Shown piece after piece: positions 38,787 through 50,300 of a stretch of 64,000 nucleotides of DNA. The notes below the pieces were generated by a model that worked only from the letters and a program-made list of their open reading frames with translations, ran no database searches and was not told the origin of the DNA. The DNA is taken from contig NZ_CP042912.1 in NCBI RefSeq assembly GCF_008087665.1, positions 1,984,001 through 2,048,000 of the forward strand. The letters run 5' to 3'. Both the position numbers and the translations under genes were made by a program. How positions within the stretch are numbered: the stretch's first letter is position 1; each line of letters begins with the position of its first letter. The stretch is from Mariniblastus fucicola (lineage in GTDB: Bacteria; Planctomycetota; Planctomycetia; Pirellulales; Pirellulaceae).

Positions 38787-41700
38787 TTAAGCTTTTCTTC
38801 TGCGTCGAACGACGACACCCAAACCAAGTCCGACCAAACACAAAGCCGCACTTGGCTCTGGAACCGCGCTGGGGCTGAAGTTCGAAAGCACGACTGAGCT
38901 CGACGTGTAGCTCACCATAAACGAGCCTTCGCCGCCCGTGGTCAGCAACATGCCTCCGTCGGCGACGTTCGCAAACTCGCCCATGATTCCGTCGGTGGCC
39001 GTTGCGATCGCAAACGTATCCGTCATCAGTGGATTGAACCCGACCAGCAAATCCACCGCGAGGGCTCCGTCGAGCAAAAGCTCGCCCTGAACCGACAGCA
39101 AGTCGAAGAGAGAATTGCTTTCGAGTTCCGTTTCCAACACAGCCGTCGATCCGAAAATCGTGTCGTCCATCAGCGTCAGGTTTCCTGCAGAACTGCCGGG
39201 AGCCACGACTCCATTGACGACGATGGATCCGTTTTCAACATCGATGAAGCCATTTCCCGTAAGCAGACTGCCCGCATTGCTTACAAGCGATAGGGCTTCG
39301 ACTTCGCTTCCGGCATCGGTGTCGATCGTGCCATTGTTAACCAGTGAATGCACCGAATCAAGTTTGCCGCCACCGCTGGCTCGAAGCGTGCCGTCGTTAC
39401 TGAAAACATTGACACTGGTGCCAACCGGGTCGATCGTCAGAACGCCAGCGTCGGCCTCGATCGTCCCGCCCATTGCGTTCACGATGTCCAGCACGTTGCT
39501 GCCAACGTTGCCTTCCCCGATCACGATCTGGCTGGCGATGTCGAGCGTCGCGCCTGTGGCTCCGTTAATTCTCGCATTGGTCCCGGACAATCGCACCGTA
39601 CCGCCGCCAGTGAACGTCGCCCCGCCCGTTTGGACTTCGATGTCCGTTGCCGCGGTTGTTGCCAGGACTTCCATCGTCCCCGTGTTGTTGATCGTGCCGG
39701 CAACTTCCGTGTCACTATTGTTGAAAGAGCGAAAGCGTCCTTCGGTCGTCAGGTTTTCAAGACGAACGTTCGAGCTTGTGAGCACGTCAATCGTTCCGCT
39801 GCCGATTGATCGAAGCGTACCGCCGACGACATCTGACCCCGTAAGTTCGACTTTCGATCCATCGCCAGCCTCAACGATGCTATTGTTGGTCAGTTCAGTT
39901 GATGTGAATCGAAGCGTTCCGCCATTGGAGGCCTGCAGCATCCCGTTGTTCGTGAATGCGTTCGTTGAATCCGCATCGATGTTGAGTGTCTGGCCACTCA
40001 CGTTGGCGTCGACCAGTCCAGCGGCGGAATTGATAACGCCCATCGTATTCACACCGATCGAGCCTTGACCTTCGACGGTCTGGTCTCCGATGGTCAGCAC
40101 GGTCCCGGAGAGCCCGTCCATCCTGGCATTGGATCCGGAAAGCGTAACGGTGCCTCCGCCAGTCAATGTGGCGTCACCGGTTTGGACTTCGATGCTGGTA
40201 GGGGCCGTAGTCGCCAGGACTTCCATCGTTCCGGTGTTGGTGATCGTCCCCAGAATTTCCGTGTCACTGTTGTTGAACGAACGCATGTTTCCTTCGATCG
40301 TCACGTTTTCCAGCAGCGAATTGGTGCTGGTCAAAATGTCAACGGTTCCGGTGCCCACGGAACGCAACGTGCCACCAGTGATCGACGAGTTGTTGATTTC
40401 GACGCGCGAACCATCCAGTGACTCGATCACATTGCTGTTGGCCATGTCCGTGCCAGAGATTCGAAGAATCCCTCCGTCGGAGGCTCGCAAAGTGCCCTCG
40501 TTAAGAAAGTCGTTGACTTGATCGCTGTCGATGTTCAGAACCCCGCCGCTAACGTTGGCGTCGACCAATCCGCTGGCCGAGTTCACCAAACCGATGACGT
40601 TATGCCCGATCGAACCTTCGCCTTCGATGGTTTGATCTCCGATCGTCAGCACCGATCCGGTGTCTCCATTGATGCCCGCGTTGTTGCCCGAAAGTTTGAC
40701 GACTCCGCCGCCTGTCAAAGTCACATCGCCGGTTTTGATTTCGTAGTCCGTGTCCGCCGTTGTGGCCCGCGATTCCATCATTCCCGTGTTGACGATCGTG
40801 CCCAGCAACTCCGTGTCGCTATTGTTCAGAGAAACGATCGTCCCGTTGTTGGTCAGGCTTTCAAACCTCACGTCGCTGCTGACTTCAACTTCCATCTCGC
40901 CGGTTCCGACCGAGTTGAGGACTCCTCCGGTGATCGTCGAGTAACTGAAGGCTACCACCGAATCTTCTTTTGCCTCGATCAGTCCACCGACGTTGTAGAC
41001 AGTTGATCCGCTAAAGCGAAGCCTGCCTTCGTTGGAAGCTTGCATAACGCCGTCGTTAACAACGCCGTCCACGTTGGTATCAATGTTCAATGTTTGCGAG
41101 GCGACATTGGCATCGATAAGTCCGGCAGAAGAATTGACCAGCCCGATTACGTTGTGGCCAATCGAACCCTGGCCTTCGATCGTGTGGTCGCCGACGGTCA
41201 ACGTGCCCGTGCCGTTGATGCCTGCGTTTGTTCCGCTAAGAGTCACCGATCCACCTCCGGTCAGAGTTGCTCCTCCGGCCTGGACTTCGATGTCGGTGTT
41301 TGCCGTTGTGGCTGCAACCAGAATCGATCCGGTGTTGGTGATCGTGCCCGTGATTTCAGTGTCCGAGTTGTTTTCGGCGACCAATGAGCCGTTGACTGTG
41401 AGGTCCTCAAGCCCGACGTTCGTTGATACGTCGATCGTCAACTGTCCCGAGCCGGCTGACTCCAGCGTGCCTCCCACGAAGGAAGAACTATGCAATCGGA
41501 CTTCCGAACCATCCTGAGCGATTACCTGTCCGCCGGAGTTGTCGACTGCTGAGCCAAGAATACGAAGCACGCCGCTGTTGCTTGCCTGTAGAGTTCCGGA
41601 ATTGACCAGGCCAGATGCGTTGGCGTCAAGTTCCAGAATTTGACCACTGACGTTTGCGTCGATCAATCCATTGGCTTGATTGACAAGTCCGATCGAATTG

Positions 41701-42281
41701 TGACCAATGTTGCCTTCGCCCTGAATCGTTTGGTCGACCACGGTCAGAGTGGAATCGTCGAGGCCGTTGATGCCCGCGTTGCTGCCGCTGAGCGTGATCG
41801 TTCCGCCGCCGTCAAGCGTCGCGCCAAGCGTATCAATTTCGATGTCCGTATTGGCGGTCGTCGCATTGATGTTGATGTTGCCGCTGTTGAATACGTTGTT
41901 CTGAAATTGGAGATCTGAATTGTTCGACATGTTGATCGTGCCGGCATTGTTGAGCGTCGTCGCTGCCGTACCACCAAAGTCAAGATTGATGCTGAAGTTG
42001 GTATCGACGACGCCGTCCGCGGCGACGGTCAGCGAGTTGAGGTCAACGTTTCCGTCAAGCGTCACCGGAGACGGTGCACCCACGATGGCATCGTCGGTGG
42101 CGCCAGTCGGAGCAGCTCCTCCGACCCAGTTGCTTCCGTTGAACCAAAGTTGGTCGCCTCCCGCGTTGTTCCAGGTCTGAGCGCTAGCGGAGGTTCCAAA
42201 CACAGCAAAGACAATGGCTGCGACGCCCGACGCCACAGCGAATTTTGCACTGCGCGTGTTCAACCAGTTGTGAACTTTCAT
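38787..42281 (-). CDS. Large repetitive PEP-CTERM surface protein
   Basis: ATG at 42281 begins a signal peptide (VASGVAAIVFAVFGTSASA cleavage near residue 35); a frame to 42434 lacks one. The 1164-residue protein has about 4.5 repeats of around 182 residues, each with the phrases GDQTIEGEGSIGHNVIGLVN, ANVSGQ, NNSDTEITGTI and TTANTDIEVQ. The sequence is rich in Gly, Asn, Ser and Thr, as in parallel beta-helix adhesins. The C-terminus, VPEPSAALCLVGLGLGVVVR followed by RRRKA, is a PEP-CTERM sorting signal, processed by an exosortase that is not in the window. A cell-surface or matrix role is likely. It is divergent from an ECF sigma factor gene across 190 bases. Confidence 0.87.
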   Translation of the reverse strand: MKVHNWLNTRSAKFAVASGVAAIVFAVFGTSASAQTWNNAGGDQLWFNGSNWVGGAAPTGATDDAIVGAPSPVTLDGNVDLNSLTVAADGVVDTNFSINLDFGGTAATTLNNAGTINMSNNSDLQFQNNVFNSGNININATTANTDIEIDTLGATLDGGGTITLSGSNAGINGLDDSTLTVVDQTIQGEGNIGHNSIGLVNQANGLIDANVSGQILELDANASGLVNSGTLQASNSGVLRILGSAVDNSGGQVIAQDGSEVRLHSSSFVGGTLESAGSGQLTIDVSTNVGLEDLTVNGSLVAENNSDTEITGTITNTGSILVAATTANTDIEVQAGGATLTGGGSVTLSGTNAGINGTGTLTVGDHTIEGQGSIGHNVIGLVNSSAGLIDANVASQTLNIDTNVDGVVNDGVMQASNEGRLRFSGSTVYNVGGLIEAKEDSVVAFSYSTITGGVLNSVGTGEMEVEVSSDVRFESLTNNGTIVSLNNSDTELLGTIVNTGMMESRATTADTDYEIKTGDVTLTGGGVVKLSGNNAGINGDTGSVLTIGDQTIEGEGSIGHNVIGLVNSASGLVDANVSGGVLNIDSDQVNDFLNEGTLRASDGGILRISGTDMANSNVIESLDGSRVEINNSSITGGTLRSVGTGTVDILTSTNSLLENVTIEGNMRSFNNSDTEILGTITNTGTMEVLATTAPTSIEVQTGDATLTGGGTVTLSGSNARMDGLSGTVLTIGDQTVEGQGSIGVNTMGVINSAAGLVDANVSGQTLNIDADSTNAFTNNGMLQASNGGTLRFTSTELTNNSIVEAGDGSKVELTGSDVVGGTLRSIGSGTIDVLTSSNVRLENLTTEGRFRSFNNSDTEVAGTINNTGTMEVLATTAATDIEVQTGGATFTGGGTVRLSGTNARINGATGATLDIASQIVIGEGNVGSNVLDIVNAMGGTIEADAGVLTIDPVGTSVNVFSNDGTLRASGGGKLDSVHSLVNNGTIDTDAGSEVEALSLVSNAGSLLTGNGFIDVENGSIVVNGVVAPGSSAGNLTLMDDTIFGSTAVLETELESNSLFDLLSVQGELLLDGALAVDLLVGFNPLMTDTFAIATATDGIMGEFANVADGGMLLTTGGEGSFMVSYTSSSVVLSNFSPSAVPEPSAALCLVGLGLGVVVRRRRKA

Positions 42282-42469
42282 TTTGTAATCCCATTTGATG
42301 CAGAGAATCGACTGAGGCGTAAAATGCGTCTGCGTCACCCACGCCTGCCGGCGGAAAAGTTTTCCGGGCATGCCAACGAAGACGGAATAACTGACACAAG
42401 CGGGACAAACGATTTCAAATTTTTCTGCGGCCATCGCTGGCGCAGGTTAAACTGAAGTTGTCCCATTTC

Positions 42470-45609: not shown

Positions 45610-46470
45610 ATGGAAGTTCACACAACGACAGGTAAACAGCGGCTCAATCGATTGCGTCCGCTTTCCGTAGGCTTCGTTATCATCCTGGTTTGCTGTCTCT
45701 CCGCGATCGTTTTCGCTGGAACCGTTGGTTCTGGCGATCGAGCCAACTCGATGCTGCAGGATTATCCCGAGGGTGAGCTTGGCGAAATCGTGAAGCTTGG
45801 CGAGGCGATCGTGATGAACACCGCGGAACATCCGCTTTCGAAACAGTACGTGGGAAACAAGCTCAACTGTACGTCCTGCCATTTGGATGGCGGGCGACAT
45901 GAAACGGCGGCAAGTTTTCTTGGAACGGCCACCGCGTATCCGGCTTGGTCGCCTCGTGAGCAAACGGTCATCACATTGGAAGACCGTGCGTTGAACTGTT
46001 TCATGCGAAGCCAAAACGGGACGCGTCCACCAAACGGTAGCCGCGTTTCAGTCGCGGTGACGACTTACATTACGTGGTTGTCGCAAGGATCAGAATTGAA
46101 GATGAACGGCGAGAAACCGCTGGGCCCGAATCACACGCCGGCGTTGGATCTGGAAGGGATCCAGCCAGATGTGGCACGCGGGGAAGAACTCTACACGGAT
46201 CGGTGTGCTGATTGTCATGGCGATAATGGTGACGAAGAACCGCCTATTTGGGGAGCCGACTCTTACAACGACGGGGCGGGTTTGAGTCGCAATGCGAAAC
46301 TGGCGTCGTGGTTGAAAGTCGCCATGCCTCTCGATGACGCGACGCTGACTGTTCAGGAAGCCTATGACCTCGCTGCTTTCGTCAACAGCCACAAACGTCC
46401 GCACTTCGTTCTGTCAGAACATCTTCCTGACGATGCAAAGTTGGGCGAGTACAACGGTACTGTTAAATAA
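45610..46470 (+). CDS. Dihaem cytochrome c, TsdA-like (thiosulfate dehydrogenase family)
   Basis: A signal anchor (GFVIILVCCLSAIVFAG, about 21-37) sends the protein to the periplasm. Two haem c sites are present: CTSCHLDGGRHETAASF (about 94-110) and CADCHGDNGDEEPP (about 199-212). TsdA-type features follow haem 1: YPAWSPREQTVITLEDRALN, CFMRSQNGTRPPN, and TTYITWLSQGSEL. TsdA oxidises thiosulfate to tetrathionate. The distal haem ligand of TsdA (Cys) is in an equivalent position to a Cys in CFMRSQ, so activity is plausible. It is 286 residues, longer than a single-haem protein and close to TsdA. A sulfur-oxidation or electron-transfer role in the periplasm is inferred. Confidence 0.78.
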   Translation: MEVHTTTGKQRLNRLRPLSVGFVIILVCCLSAIVFAGTVGSGDRANSMLQDYPEGELGEIVKLGEAIVMNTAEHPLSKQYVGNKLNCTSCHLDGGRHETAASFLGTATAYPAWSPREQTVITLEDRALNCFMRSQNGTRPPNGSRVSVAVTTYITWLSQGSELKMNGEKPLGPNHTPALDLEGIQPDVARGEELYTDRCADCHGDNGDEEPPIWGADSYNDGAGLSRNAKLASWLKVAMPLDDATLTVQEAYDLAAFVNSHKRPHFVLSEHLPDDAKLGEYNGTVK

Positions 46471-46496
46471 AAAGGCCGCCTCAAAAGAAGCGGCCT
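46468..46496 (-). terminator. Rho-independent terminator of the thioredoxin gene
   Basis: On the minus strand AGGCCGC, loop TTCTTTTGAG, GCGGCCT is followed by TTTTTATTT. It ends transcription of the selenoprotein candidate, 66 bases after its stop, and lies directly after the stop of the convergent cytochrome gene. Confidence 0.82.
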
Positions 46497-46561
46497 CATG
46501 AATCGGCATGTCGTTCGGGTCTTGCTGTACGCGAATCAACCCGGTGACGCCTTTGAGCGCC

Positions 46562-46996
46562 TTACAACGCCTCGTCAATCATGGCGCGAATTTTCGCTTC
46601 GTCGGCCCCGACGACTCGTCCAACTTCATCGCCGCCCTTGACGACAACCAAAGTTGGCATGAACTCAACTTTAAACTCTGCTGCAACATCTCCGGCTTTG
46701 TCCACGTCTACTGCGACGAACTTGACTTTGCCTTCGTACTCTTTAGCCATCTTCTGAAGCCCCGGCTTCAATGTTTTGCACGGGCCTCACCACACGGCTG
46801 TAAAATCGACCAGCGTAATCTCATTGGCTGCCACAGCGGCCTCAAGCCCGTCAGCGTCGACTTCGTCCAGAACGATTCCGCCATCGACGGCTGAAGCGCC
46901 TTGCGTGTTGCCTTTGCCGGATTCGACAGTCGACTGCTCGCCGCAGCCCACGGCCAGTATCGCCATCAGGCCGATTGAAAAAAATAACGATCTCAT
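46562..46996 (-). CDS. Lipoprotein thioredoxin with in-frame TGA at the active-site Cys (candidate selenoprotein)
   Basis: The frame is one continuous reading from ATG 46996 to the stop at 46562, except for TGA at 46787-46789. Thioredoxins have WCGPC; here it reads Trp-TGA-Gly-Pro-Cys, so TGA sits at the first, nucleophilic Cys (residue 70 of 144). No frameshift is involved. Twenty-two bases after TGA, TGAAGC, loop CGGG, GCTTCA forms a 6-bp hairpin, which matches the bacterial SECIS form (hairpin loop within about 16-37 nt, G among its first loop bases). The N-terminus is a lipoprotein signal (MRSLFFSIGLMAILAVGC, with GC as lipobox end), so it probably works in the periplasm. The rest is normal thioredoxin (VKFVAVDVDKAGDVAAEFKV, then MPTLVV with cis-Pro). 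A nonsense mutation is the alternative. Confidence 0.75.
46756..46775 (-). promoter_or_regulatory. Candidate SECIS hairpin
   Basis: Stem TGAAGC/GCTTCA with loop CGGG, 6 bp, extended by one G-U pair (46754 and 46771), lies inside the coding sequence for Leu-Lys-Pro-Gly-Leu-Gln. The distance from TGA to the loop is 22 nt. Position and loop G content fit the bacterial SECIS consensus. SelB binding itself is not testable here. Confidence 0.6.
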
Positions 46997-47261
46997 TAGT
47001 ACTCCAAAGATATCTTTGCGAATTTGAAAAGTTTGTTGCGTTGAGTCATCTCAAAACGTTCGCGACGCTCTTCAAAACGATCAGCATCGTTTGGGCCGGC
47101 CAGGAAGACACAAAAGTCTCCAGACCACGCTTTGAAACAGGCCTTAGGGTAACAGTACGCCAGGAACAATCGAAGCTGGATTTTGGCTGCTGTGGCTCTC
47201 GATACATTCGGCCAGCAAGCCCTGGTTGGGGCGTCGCAAGAATCTGGAACCGTATGCGACT
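46997..47261. other. Intergenic, divergent promoters for thioredoxin and valS
   Basis: No gene is convincing in this stretch; the small open frames are shadows. No T-box leader or strong hairpin was seen. Confidence 0.4.
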
Positions 47262-47289
47262 TTGCCCAAGTCGCGATTTTGCCTATAAA
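47262..47289 (+). promoter_or_regulatory. Probable sigma70 promoter of valS
   Basis: TTGCCC at 47262-47267 and TATAAA at 47284-47289 are separated by 16 bp. The start of transcription would be near 47296, leaving a leader of about 68 bases. Confidence 0.4.
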
Positions 47290-47363
47290 GTGCAGCTTTA
47301 CTGAACCTTTCTGCGCCCTCAATGCTCCAGCGGGCATGCGATCAACCTCTACCACGAACAAAA

Positions 47364-50300
47364 ATGACCGACCAGGAAATTCCAACACGTTTCGACTTTG
47401 ATTCCGCTGAAGCACGCATCTACGAGATGTGGGAGCAGGGCGGATGGTTTCACGCCGACGAAAACGATGAACGTCCTCCTTACACCGTCGTCATTCCGCC
47501 GCCGAACGTCACCGGAGCACTGCACCTTGGTCACGCGCTCAACAACACACTGCAAGACACGCTGATCCGCATGAAGCGAATGCAGGGCTTCAACGCACTT
47601 TGGATGCCAGGCACCGACCATGCCGGAATCGCAACGCAGGCCCGCGTCGAAAAACGCATCAAGGAAATCGAAGGCGTCACGCGACATGATCTGGGGCGCG
47701 AAAAGCTTGTCGCGCGGATCTGGGACTGGAAAGACCAATACGAAAAACGAATCCTCGGCCAGCTGAAACAAATGGGCTGCAGCTGTGACTGGGAGCGAAC
47801 CCGTTTTACGCTGGACGATCAGTGTGCCACCGCGGTTCGGTACACGTTCCACGACCTGTTCCAAAAAACCAAAATCTATCGCGGCAAACGACTGGTCAAC
47901 TGGGACACGTTCTTGCAGACGACCGTTAGCGACGACGAAGTCTTCAACAAGACCAAGCAGGGCCACTTCTGGCACTTCATGTATCCGGTCATCGACCCCA
48001 AACCTGGCGAGCCGGCTCATATCATTGTCGCGACAACCCGGCCGGAAACGATGCTGGGCGACACCGCGGTTGCTGTTCATCCGGATCCTGCTGCGGCGCT
48101 GAGCAAAGTCGCCTCTGAGTTGAACGACAAGCTCAAGAAATGTTCCACGTCGGAAAAAGAAGGCGTCGAAGAGCAAATCAAAGCCCTCGAACAGCGTCGC
48201 GAATCGATGCTTCCGCAATTGGAACTTTTGCGAGACATGGCCAACGATGGACGAAAGCTCACGTTGCCGCTGCAGAATCGCGAAATCCCATTGGTCTGCG
48301 ACGAGTGGGCGAAGCCGGAGCTTGGTACGGGCTGCGTCAAGATCACGCCGGCTCACGATCCGAATGACTATGAAGTTGGCGTTCGCTGCGATCTGCCGAT
48401 GATCAACATCATGAATGCCGATGGAACGCTCAACGCGGAAGCCGGTGCTTACGTCGGGCTGTCGATGAAGGAAGCTCGCAAGAAAGTCGTCGCCGACCTC
48501 GAAGCGTTGGGCTTGCTCGAGAAAGTCGAAGACCGCGAAATCGAATTGCCGACGTCGGATCGCAGTAAGACTCCGATTGAACCGTATCTCACCGATCAAT
48601 GGTTTGTTCGCATGGATGAACTTGCTCAATCGGCGATGGATGCCGTTTCCGACGGGCGCGTTGCGATCACGCCCGAGCGTTACGGCAAAGGATACCTGTC
48701 GTGGCTTGGTGAGAAACGTGATTGGCCGATTTCACGTCAGCTTTGGTGGGGACATCAGATTCCGGTTTGGTCGATTGGCTGCGAAAGCGAATCGGAAAGC
48801 GAAGAGTTGGTCGAGCAGATTGCGGCGCTCGATTCCTGGGACGCGGAAAACGTTTCGATTCAAGTCGAGCTCTCTGAGGAAACCGACGAGGCCAAACGAA
48901 AGCAGTTGGAACTTCCGTTCGCGACGGTTCACGTTTGCGTGCGTGACGAAAATTCACCGGTCGAATCAGAGCTGGAAACGCTCGGCTTTGTCCGCGAAGA
49001 AGACGTGCTCGATACCTGGTTCAGTTCCGCACTGTGGACGCATTCGACGCTTGGCTGGCCCGAGCAAACGGCTTCGCTCGCAAAGTTTTATCCGACCAGC
49101 ACACTGATCACCTCGCGTGACATCATCACGCTGTGGGTCGCACGGATGGTTTTGATGGGCTTGAACAACATGGGCGAAGTCCCGTTCAAGGACGTGTTCA
49201 TCCATCCGAAGATTCTCGATGCCTACGGCGAAACGATGTCGAAATCGAAAGGCAACGGCATCGACCCGCTGGACATCATCCAGAAATTCGGCGCCGACGC
49301 GCTGCGGTTTGCGATGGCTGATCTGACGACCGACACGCAGGACGTCAAGCTGCCGGTTCAGTTTGAGTGTCCGCATTGTCAGCACGTTTTCGATCAGACC
49401 AAGAAGAATCGCGAACTCCACGTCGTCGAGTGTCCTAACAAGAGTTGCGGCAAGCCATTTTCGACTCAGTGGGCCGAATCCGAAGAAGACAAAGCCCTGC
49501 CAAAAGGAGCGGTCACCAGTGAGCGCTTTGAAAAGTCGCGGAACTTTGTCAACAAGCTATGGAACGCGTCCCGGTTCGCGATGATGAATCTGGAAGGCTA
49601 TCAATCGGCGCCCATCAATGTGGACGACATGACGATCGAAGATCGTTGGTTGATGAGCCGTCTGTACAACGTTTCCAAAAAGGTCACCGAAGCGATGGAC
49701 GGGTTTCGTTACGCCGAAGCCACCGGTGCACTTTACGATTTCGCGTGGAATGACTTCTGTAGTTTCTTCCTGGAAATCGTCAAGGATCGTTTGTCTGACG
49801 ACGCGCGACGTCCGCACGCACAACGAATGCTGGTGCTGGGGCTGGATACGCTGATGCGATTGTTGCATCCCTTCATTCCGTTTTTGACCGAAGAGATCTG
49901 GCAGATTCTTAATCGCATCGCTCCCGACCGCGGTTTGGACGCGTCGACGGCCAGCGATTGTCTGGTCCGGGCAGCCTGGCCGGAGATTGATGCTTCGTTC
50001 GATTCGGCGACGATCGACGCGCAGTTTGCTCACTTCCAAAGTACGCTCGGTGCGATCCGTGAGATTCGTGCGAAGCAGAATTTGGGCGAAAAGAAACCGA
50101 TCAAGTTTTCGATCAAGTGTAGCGATGCGATTCGCGATTCGCTCCAACCGATGGCTTCGTATTTCCAAAGCATGTCCAAAGCCGAGCTGACCGACATTGG
50201 CCCGGCGATCGAGCCTCCTGAAGTCAACGCGACGCTGATCCGCGGCGAGCTTGAGCTTTTCGTTGATCTCGATGGCTTGATCGATAAAGACGCAGAAAAG

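Follow-up and report, generated by a model that had tools for sequence, protein, structure and literature searches.

The thioredoxin lipoprotein locus

The window (the whole 64,000-nucleotide stretch of Mariniblastus fucicola DNA that was analysed, and to which plain coordinates refer) carries on its minus strand, from 46996 to 46562, a single reading frame of 144 codons followed by TAA. Its sole internal stop is a TGA at 46789-46787; reading this codon as selenocysteine (Sec, U) gives the active site WUGPC and a predicted protein of 144 residues, MRSLFFSIGLMAILAVGC...FTAVWUGPCKTLKPGLQ...EAL. The first-pass annotation had described one continuous thioredoxin frame in which a TGA occupies the place of the first WCGPC cysteine, and this is what is found, the strand, which was not stated there, being the minus strand; translation of 46562-46996 on the plus strand is meaningless. 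The features of the locus, all on the minus strand, are as follows.

46562..46996, minus: gene for a predicted thioredoxin lipoprotein, 144 residues, predicted Sec at position 70, TAA end (sequence, Pfam)
46943..46996, minus: predicted lipoprotein signal peptide, ...LAVG-C18 (sequence, fit to a lipobox pattern)
46787..46789, minus: in-frame TGA, putative Sec70, in place of the first Cys of WCGPC (sequence; same codon in the orthologue from genome G013)
46778..46780, minus: codon of the putative resolving Cys73 of UGPC (sequence)
46754..46771, minus: SECIS-like hairpin TTGAAGC-CGGG-GCTTCAG (rigid-stem scan; G013 differs only at the last base)
46574..46852, minus: thioredoxin domain, residues 49-141 (Pfam)
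47002..47005, minus: GGAG, Shine-Dalgarno-like, 5' of the ATG (by eye)
46472..46497, minus: intrinsic terminator-like stem-loop between convergent genes (11 pairs, T-rich tail)

The Pfam Thioredoxin family (PF00085) matches residues 49-141 with an E value of 4.6e-27 and 94.5 bits (cut-off 23.5), and the predicted protein has both the UxxC motif and the cis-Pro region (MPT, residues 113-115). The predicted thioredoxin fold is settled by the Pfam and PDB sequence matches. The score against the thioredoxin equivalog TIGR01068 (91.1 bits) lies below the curated cut-off of 96.8, and the predicted product is therefore not filed as a housekeeping thioredoxin. Its amino terminus (...LAVG-C18), like that of the G013 orthologue (...LALG-C), fits a lipobox pattern, and the thioredoxin is probably membrane-anchored.

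The terminator claimed in the first-pass annotation is present as the stem at 46497-46472 of the minus strand. No sigma-70-like promoter was detected at 46400-47350, and an Rfam search of both strands of 46000-47500 returned three matches, none of them near its gathering score. The convergent gene (45610-46470, plus strand) contains two CxxCH motifs (CTSCH and CADCH) and appears by eye to encode a c-type cytochrome. Elsewhere in the window, at 38787-42434 on the minus strand, is a gene for a repetitive protein of 1215 residues with, by eye, a PEP-CTERM-like tail at its end.

Selenocysteine machinery of the host

The M. fucicola genome analysed (G000; 6,570,840 bases in one contig, C1) contains selB (355.7 bits), selA (555.4 bits) and selD (265.1 bits), each above its curated cut-off, and a tRNA-Sec at C1:3476450-3476545 that scores 70.1 bits (gathering score 47), the second-best match in the genome reaching 41.3. 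ARAGORN assigns the same tRNA as SeC with anticodon TCA. The first-pass annotation had let its reading depend on selA, selB and selC, and selA, selB, selD and tRNA-Sec are all present. Among 14 known control genomes, matches above the cut-off were obtained for selB in two, selA in one, selD in two and tRNA-Sec in five; since 5/14 controls pass with tRNA-Sec compared with 1/14 with selA, the tRNA-Sec cut-off alone is not strict. A tRNA-Sec above this cut-off was detected in 24 of the 28 genomes of the genus and was absent from G004, G022, G024 and G027, the assemblies of which are 71-88% complete.

Conservation of the TGA codon in a second genome

One clear orthologue of the window gene was found among 60 genomes searched, at G013:C6:43487-43903 in a member of the same genus. 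The two genes are 55-57% identical, and the orthologue likewise possesses a single internal stop, which is again TGA and falls on the equivalent codon, giving WUPPC. Identical residues number 47 of the 74 aligned after the Sec codon and 34 of the 65 before it. For the part after the TGA, NG86 gives a dN of 0.295 and a dS of 1.12 (ratio ∼0.26), and YN00 gives 0.335 and 0.699 (ratio 0.48); since dN is lower than dS and residues are retained, the coding part past the TGA is evidently under purifying selection. By eye, the gene neighbourhood differs between the two genomes.

The gene has a narrow distribution: of the 28 genomes of the genus, two have it. Searches of 241 family genomes (E values up to 1e-16) and of a phylum sample of 392 genomes (E values up to 1e-20) yielded no additional copy with a TGA. 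In a wider contig scan, in which one of the two patterns required Cys in WC[GP]PC and the own and near genomes were possibly left out, no clear orthologue was seen among the best 80 of at least 431 relatives (31-52% identity over the best segment).

Such rarity could be expected of a decaying gene, and a single TGC to TGA change would be enough to kill a thioredoxin gene. However, a pseudogene produced by a recent mutation of this kind is highly improbable given that G013 shares the TGA, that the frame past it is open and constrained in both genes, and that the Sec pathway of the host is complete. The stop-containing gene is almost certainly intact, and the same three observations support the selenocysteine reading put forward in the first-pass annotation.

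The downstream hairpin

The hairpin at 46771-46754 of the minus strand consists of 7 pairs, the outermost U-G, closed by the loop CGGG, with the stem starting 15 nt and the loop 22 nt after the TGA. The first-pass annotation had placed a 6-bp hairpin with this loop 22 nt after the TGA; the loop and its distance are as described, but the stem begins earlier and is one pair longer. The bacterial SECIS rules in the available excerpts of PMC13188914 specify a loop of 3-9 nt, a stem of 4-16 bp, a loop located 16-37 nt from the UGA, a G among the first two loop bases and an MFE of -7.5 or lower. In loop size (4), stem length (7), position of the G (second in the loop) and spacing (22), the window hairpin is within these limits, but the energy of the rigid core, -6.4 kcal/mol in the window gene and -6.7 in G013, is short of the published -7.5. 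The SECIS-type scan proposed in the first-pass annotation is thus favourable for spacing, stem length and loop G and unfavourable for energy when the core alone is considered. The whole-structure energy of the region varies with the stretch that is folded; in free folding of 48 nt from the TGA, the window gene favours another helix (-16.0), and G013 forms the proposed hairpin.

At least 17 bases of the hairpin core, TTGAAGCCGGGGCTTCA, are the same in both genes. Within the hairpin stretch, 5 of the 6 identical residues also share their codon, compared with 15 of 36 after the hairpin and 15 of 32 before the TGA, all of these being small numbers. Under rigid-stem SECIS rules, an equally or more stable hairpin follows 127 of the 2309 TGAs in the window (5.5%), and among 4000 synonymous recodings per peptide, as good a hairpin arose in 31 with the window gene, in 235 with the G013 orthologue and in 187 with the TrxA of the window's genome. 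Because of these chance rates, the hairpin by itself constitutes weak, supporting evidence. For the hairpins of six candidate genes of this genome (the DsbD gene not included), the combined background p by Fisher's method is 3e-4. On the plus strand, the hairpin (46755-46770) also scores as terminator-like, probably just as a result of palindromy.

Other candidate selenoprotein genes in the genome

Internal stops are present in 5 of the 23 PF00085 matches in G000, one of which (C1:3976112) is under the Pfam cut-off, and in 4 of the 29 PF00578 matches; every one of these stops is TGA, and no in-frame internal TAA or TAG was detected among the matches to either family. Two genes are common to both lists, such that the union comprises seven thioredoxin-fold genes with a TGA in UxxC, which is a minimum in that PF00085 and PF00578 alone were scanned. 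With the TGA given as U, the seven candidates are:

46562..46996, minus strand: window lipoprotein, WUGPC
G000:C1:3650757-3651077 (L051, 1965-2285): TrxA, cytoplasmic type, SUGPC
C1:5525986: AhpC/TSA-family candidate, WUGPC
C1:345447 (L197): AhpC/TSA-family candidate, peroxiredoxin-like, GULAC
C1:5688146: AhpC/TSA-family candidate, WUPYC
C1:3976040: AhpC/TSA-family candidate, WUPSC
G000:C1:3425789-3426799, minus strand (L201, 2290-3300; listed at C1:3425933): DsbD-like carrier, WUAVC

The four AhpC/TSA-family genes (L196, L197, L198 and L199) thus each have an in-frame TGA within UxxC. As judged from alignments with PDB chains and from the TrxA relatives, Sec corresponds to the first Cys of CxxC in six of the seven genes; the PDB-chain alignments place it there in L196, L198 and the DsbD-like protein, and at the Cys of WCGPC in L199. 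Both L196 and L199 match TlpA/ResA-like PDB chains, and L199 needs a long start to agree with a lipobox pattern. L197 was rejected as a case of Sec for Cys, since the best-matching peroxiredoxin has Thr at this position and Cys three places on (TxxC); the UxxC type that it represents is listed for Prx-like selenoproteins in the available text of PMC2398784 and PMC1088965. A further gene, G219, was rejected as a candidate, the TGA listed for it being upstream of its start.

The pattern across these families bears on whether the UGA of the window gene is a true or leaky stop, which would yield mainly a 69-residue fragment or a readthrough product with another amino acid. Bacterial Sec insertion is frequently incomplete and the energy of the window hairpin is modest, both of which fit termination; TGA nevertheless recurs in the UxxC of seven thioredoxin-fold genes, TAA and TAG are absent from all matches to the two families scanned, and Cys forms stand in for Sec at the same codon among relatives, leaving this explanation with very little probability.

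The DsbD-like carrier

DsbD-type carriers supply electrons outside the cytoplasm in bacteria, and their C-terminal domain is, by DsbD topology, periplasmic. The TGA of the DsbD-like carrier gene takes the place of the first Cys of the C-terminal WCxxC, in a thioredoxin-like domain. A search with the genome's own DsbD fragment (E values up to 1e-30) gave 25 matches in 23 of the 28 genus genomes, 21 of which (in 20 genomes) contain one TGA, always at the same UxxC codon; G013 has the Sec type. Hairpins were scored for 17 of the 21 TGA-type genes and all reached -4.4 or better, with loops 23-25 nt from the TGA, compared with -1.7, +3.3 and, in two cases, no hairpin for the four Cys forms. M. fucicola itself also has a Cys DsbD (L225, C1:1197431). 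TGA-type DsbD genes occur without tRNA-Sec above the cut-off in G004, G024 and G027 (80, 71 and 88% complete), which is most simply ascribed to incomplete assembly.

The carrier fragment (P0004) scores 135.6 bits with NF045694 (seleno_TsoB) and 97.2 bits with the DsbD model PRK00293, far under the respective cut-offs of 805 and 330, the query being a fragment. TsoB, a rhodanese/DsbD fusion-like selenoprotein that is named in NCBIfam and in the available part of PMC13188914, resembles the carrier described here in having Sec in a DsbD-like protein. The carrier is a proposed partner of the window thioredoxin and distinct from it.

Sec-type TrxA and its relatives

Sec-type TrxA with UGPC or UPPC was detected in at least 15 of the 28 genomes of the genus (G000, G001, G002, G003, G006, G007, G008, G015, G016, G017, G018, G019, G020, G023 and G025) and also in G100 and G101, which belong to another genus. 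Cys forms from G009, G013 and G014, together with the M. fucicola paralogue (L200, active site CPPC), are nested among the Sec forms, indicating exchange of TGA and TGC at this codon. The comparison of homologues suggested in the first-pass annotation has therefore given TGA at the same codon in G013 and both TGA and TGC in TrxA-type relatives. A TAA listed for the M. fucicola paralogue was dismissed as an internal stop, being its terminal one.

Removal of repeats from 17 Sec rows leaves 11 distinct ones, of which 7 have the TrxA hairpin stem paired throughout, as does none of 18 Cys rows; at least four of the five stem pairs are kept in 10 of 11 Sec rows and 5 of 18 Cys rows. This contrast partly reflects relatedness and protein sequence, because the four Cys rows nearest to the Sec rows retain three or four pairs and most others differ in peptide. 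A two-sided change, from G-C to A-T, is found in the hairpin of G100 and G101. The hairpins of G001, G002 and G006 reach just -1.1 kcal/mol, and for the Sec-TrxA of G015 the rigid rules give no hairpin at all. The TrxA hairpin mostly has the loop GGTC and lies in a different register from that of the window gene.

In a tree of 60 rows, built from few columns and with many weak forks, the lipoprotein pair is separate from the Sec rows of TrxA, and the starred branches of the tree require the Sec label to change at least three times. It is plausible that Sec was gained separately in the lipoprotein, a reading that rests on long branches. Single-base sequencing or assembly errors do occur, but as the source of the window TGA such an error is the least credible explanation of all, given TGA at the corresponding codon of the window gene in G013, of TrxA in 16 other genomes and of DsbD in 19 other genomes of the genus.

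Relation to known selenoproteins

Thioredoxin selenoproteins of the UxxC type have been described in bacteria, with seven sequences of the PF00085 family in the available text of PMC1794560 and 11 Sargasso sequences in that of PMC1088965; excerpts of PMC2398784 and PMC13188914 also include the family, the latter citing a biochemical paper from 2015. The window gene shares with these the thioredoxin fold and a UxxC with Sec for the first Cys, but differs in having a lipoprotein signal and a predicted extracytoplasmic location. In the available portions of these sources, Sec thioredoxins are discussed with no mention of lipoproteins in PMC2398784 and PMC13188914, and none of the periplasm or of secretion in PMC1088965. 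The Sec-TrxA of the genus (G000:C1:3650757 and relatives) is similar to the window gene in its UGPC or UPPC site, in the downstream hairpin present in most members and in its occurrence in the same genome, but it is without a signal peptide, has its hairpin in another register and falls on a separate branch of the weakly resolved tree. Within the same phylum, the available text of PMC4807772 reports a complete Sec machinery and several redox selenoproteins in planctomycetes P1 and P2, and discusses formate dehydrogenase and FmdB as selenoproteins. A literature search found no paper joining Mariniblastus with seleno- terms. Sec thioredoxins and planctomycete selenoproteins were thus already known, and the window gene adds, with high confidence in its being a selenoprotein gene, a new Sec thioredoxin. 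The context is less expected, in that Sec appears to be present in TrxA of the cytoplasm, in a DsbD-like carrier and in exported proteins alike.

Proposed mechanism and wider implications

An intact frame interrupted by TGA, Sec machinery in the same genome, one orthologue in which the TGA, the hairpin core and the frame are kept, and other Sec-type genes are observed. The window gene very probably encodes a selenoprotein, as far as can be judged from sequence. It is proposed that SelB, with Sec-tRNA(UCA), would recognize the hairpin located just 3' of the UGA, such that Sec is inserted at position 70 to generate a UGPC active site, and that the thioredoxin would then be exported and, if lipidated as predicted, anchored outside the cytoplasm. 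It most likely serves as a thiol-disulfide reductase in which, by analogy with thioredoxin chemistry, Sec70 would attack a disulfide and Cys73 resolve the intermediate. At its predicted extracytoplasmic location the thioredoxin would need an electron source, and a DsbD-type carrier in the membrane may recharge it; one such carrier of this genome is itself a candidate Sec protein.

An extension of this model would be a thiol relay that spans the cytoplasmic membrane and uses selenium, from Sec-TrxA to Sec-DsbD and on to exported Sec proteins, operating beside Cys counterparts in M. fucicola and in much of its genus; its exported end would include the window lipoprotein together with one or two proteins of TlpA-like type. 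We regard such a relay as tentative and rather unlikely, its prospects being reduced by the Cys forms of DsbD (L225) and TrxA (L200) in M. fucicola and by the Cys TrxA of G013, the other genome with the Sec lipoprotein. Were it to exist, several successive hand-overs would use Sec, and the flow of reductant to the cell surface would be partly selenium-dependent.

Interpreted with the standard code, the window gene and six others would be cut at their TGA codons. With the TGA read as Sec, the redox network has Sec at some steps and Cys at others, within the same and neighbouring genomes, and both the gain and loss of Sec at a catalytic Cys and its benefit to extracytoplasmic thiol reduction become questions that can be tested within a single organism and its genus.
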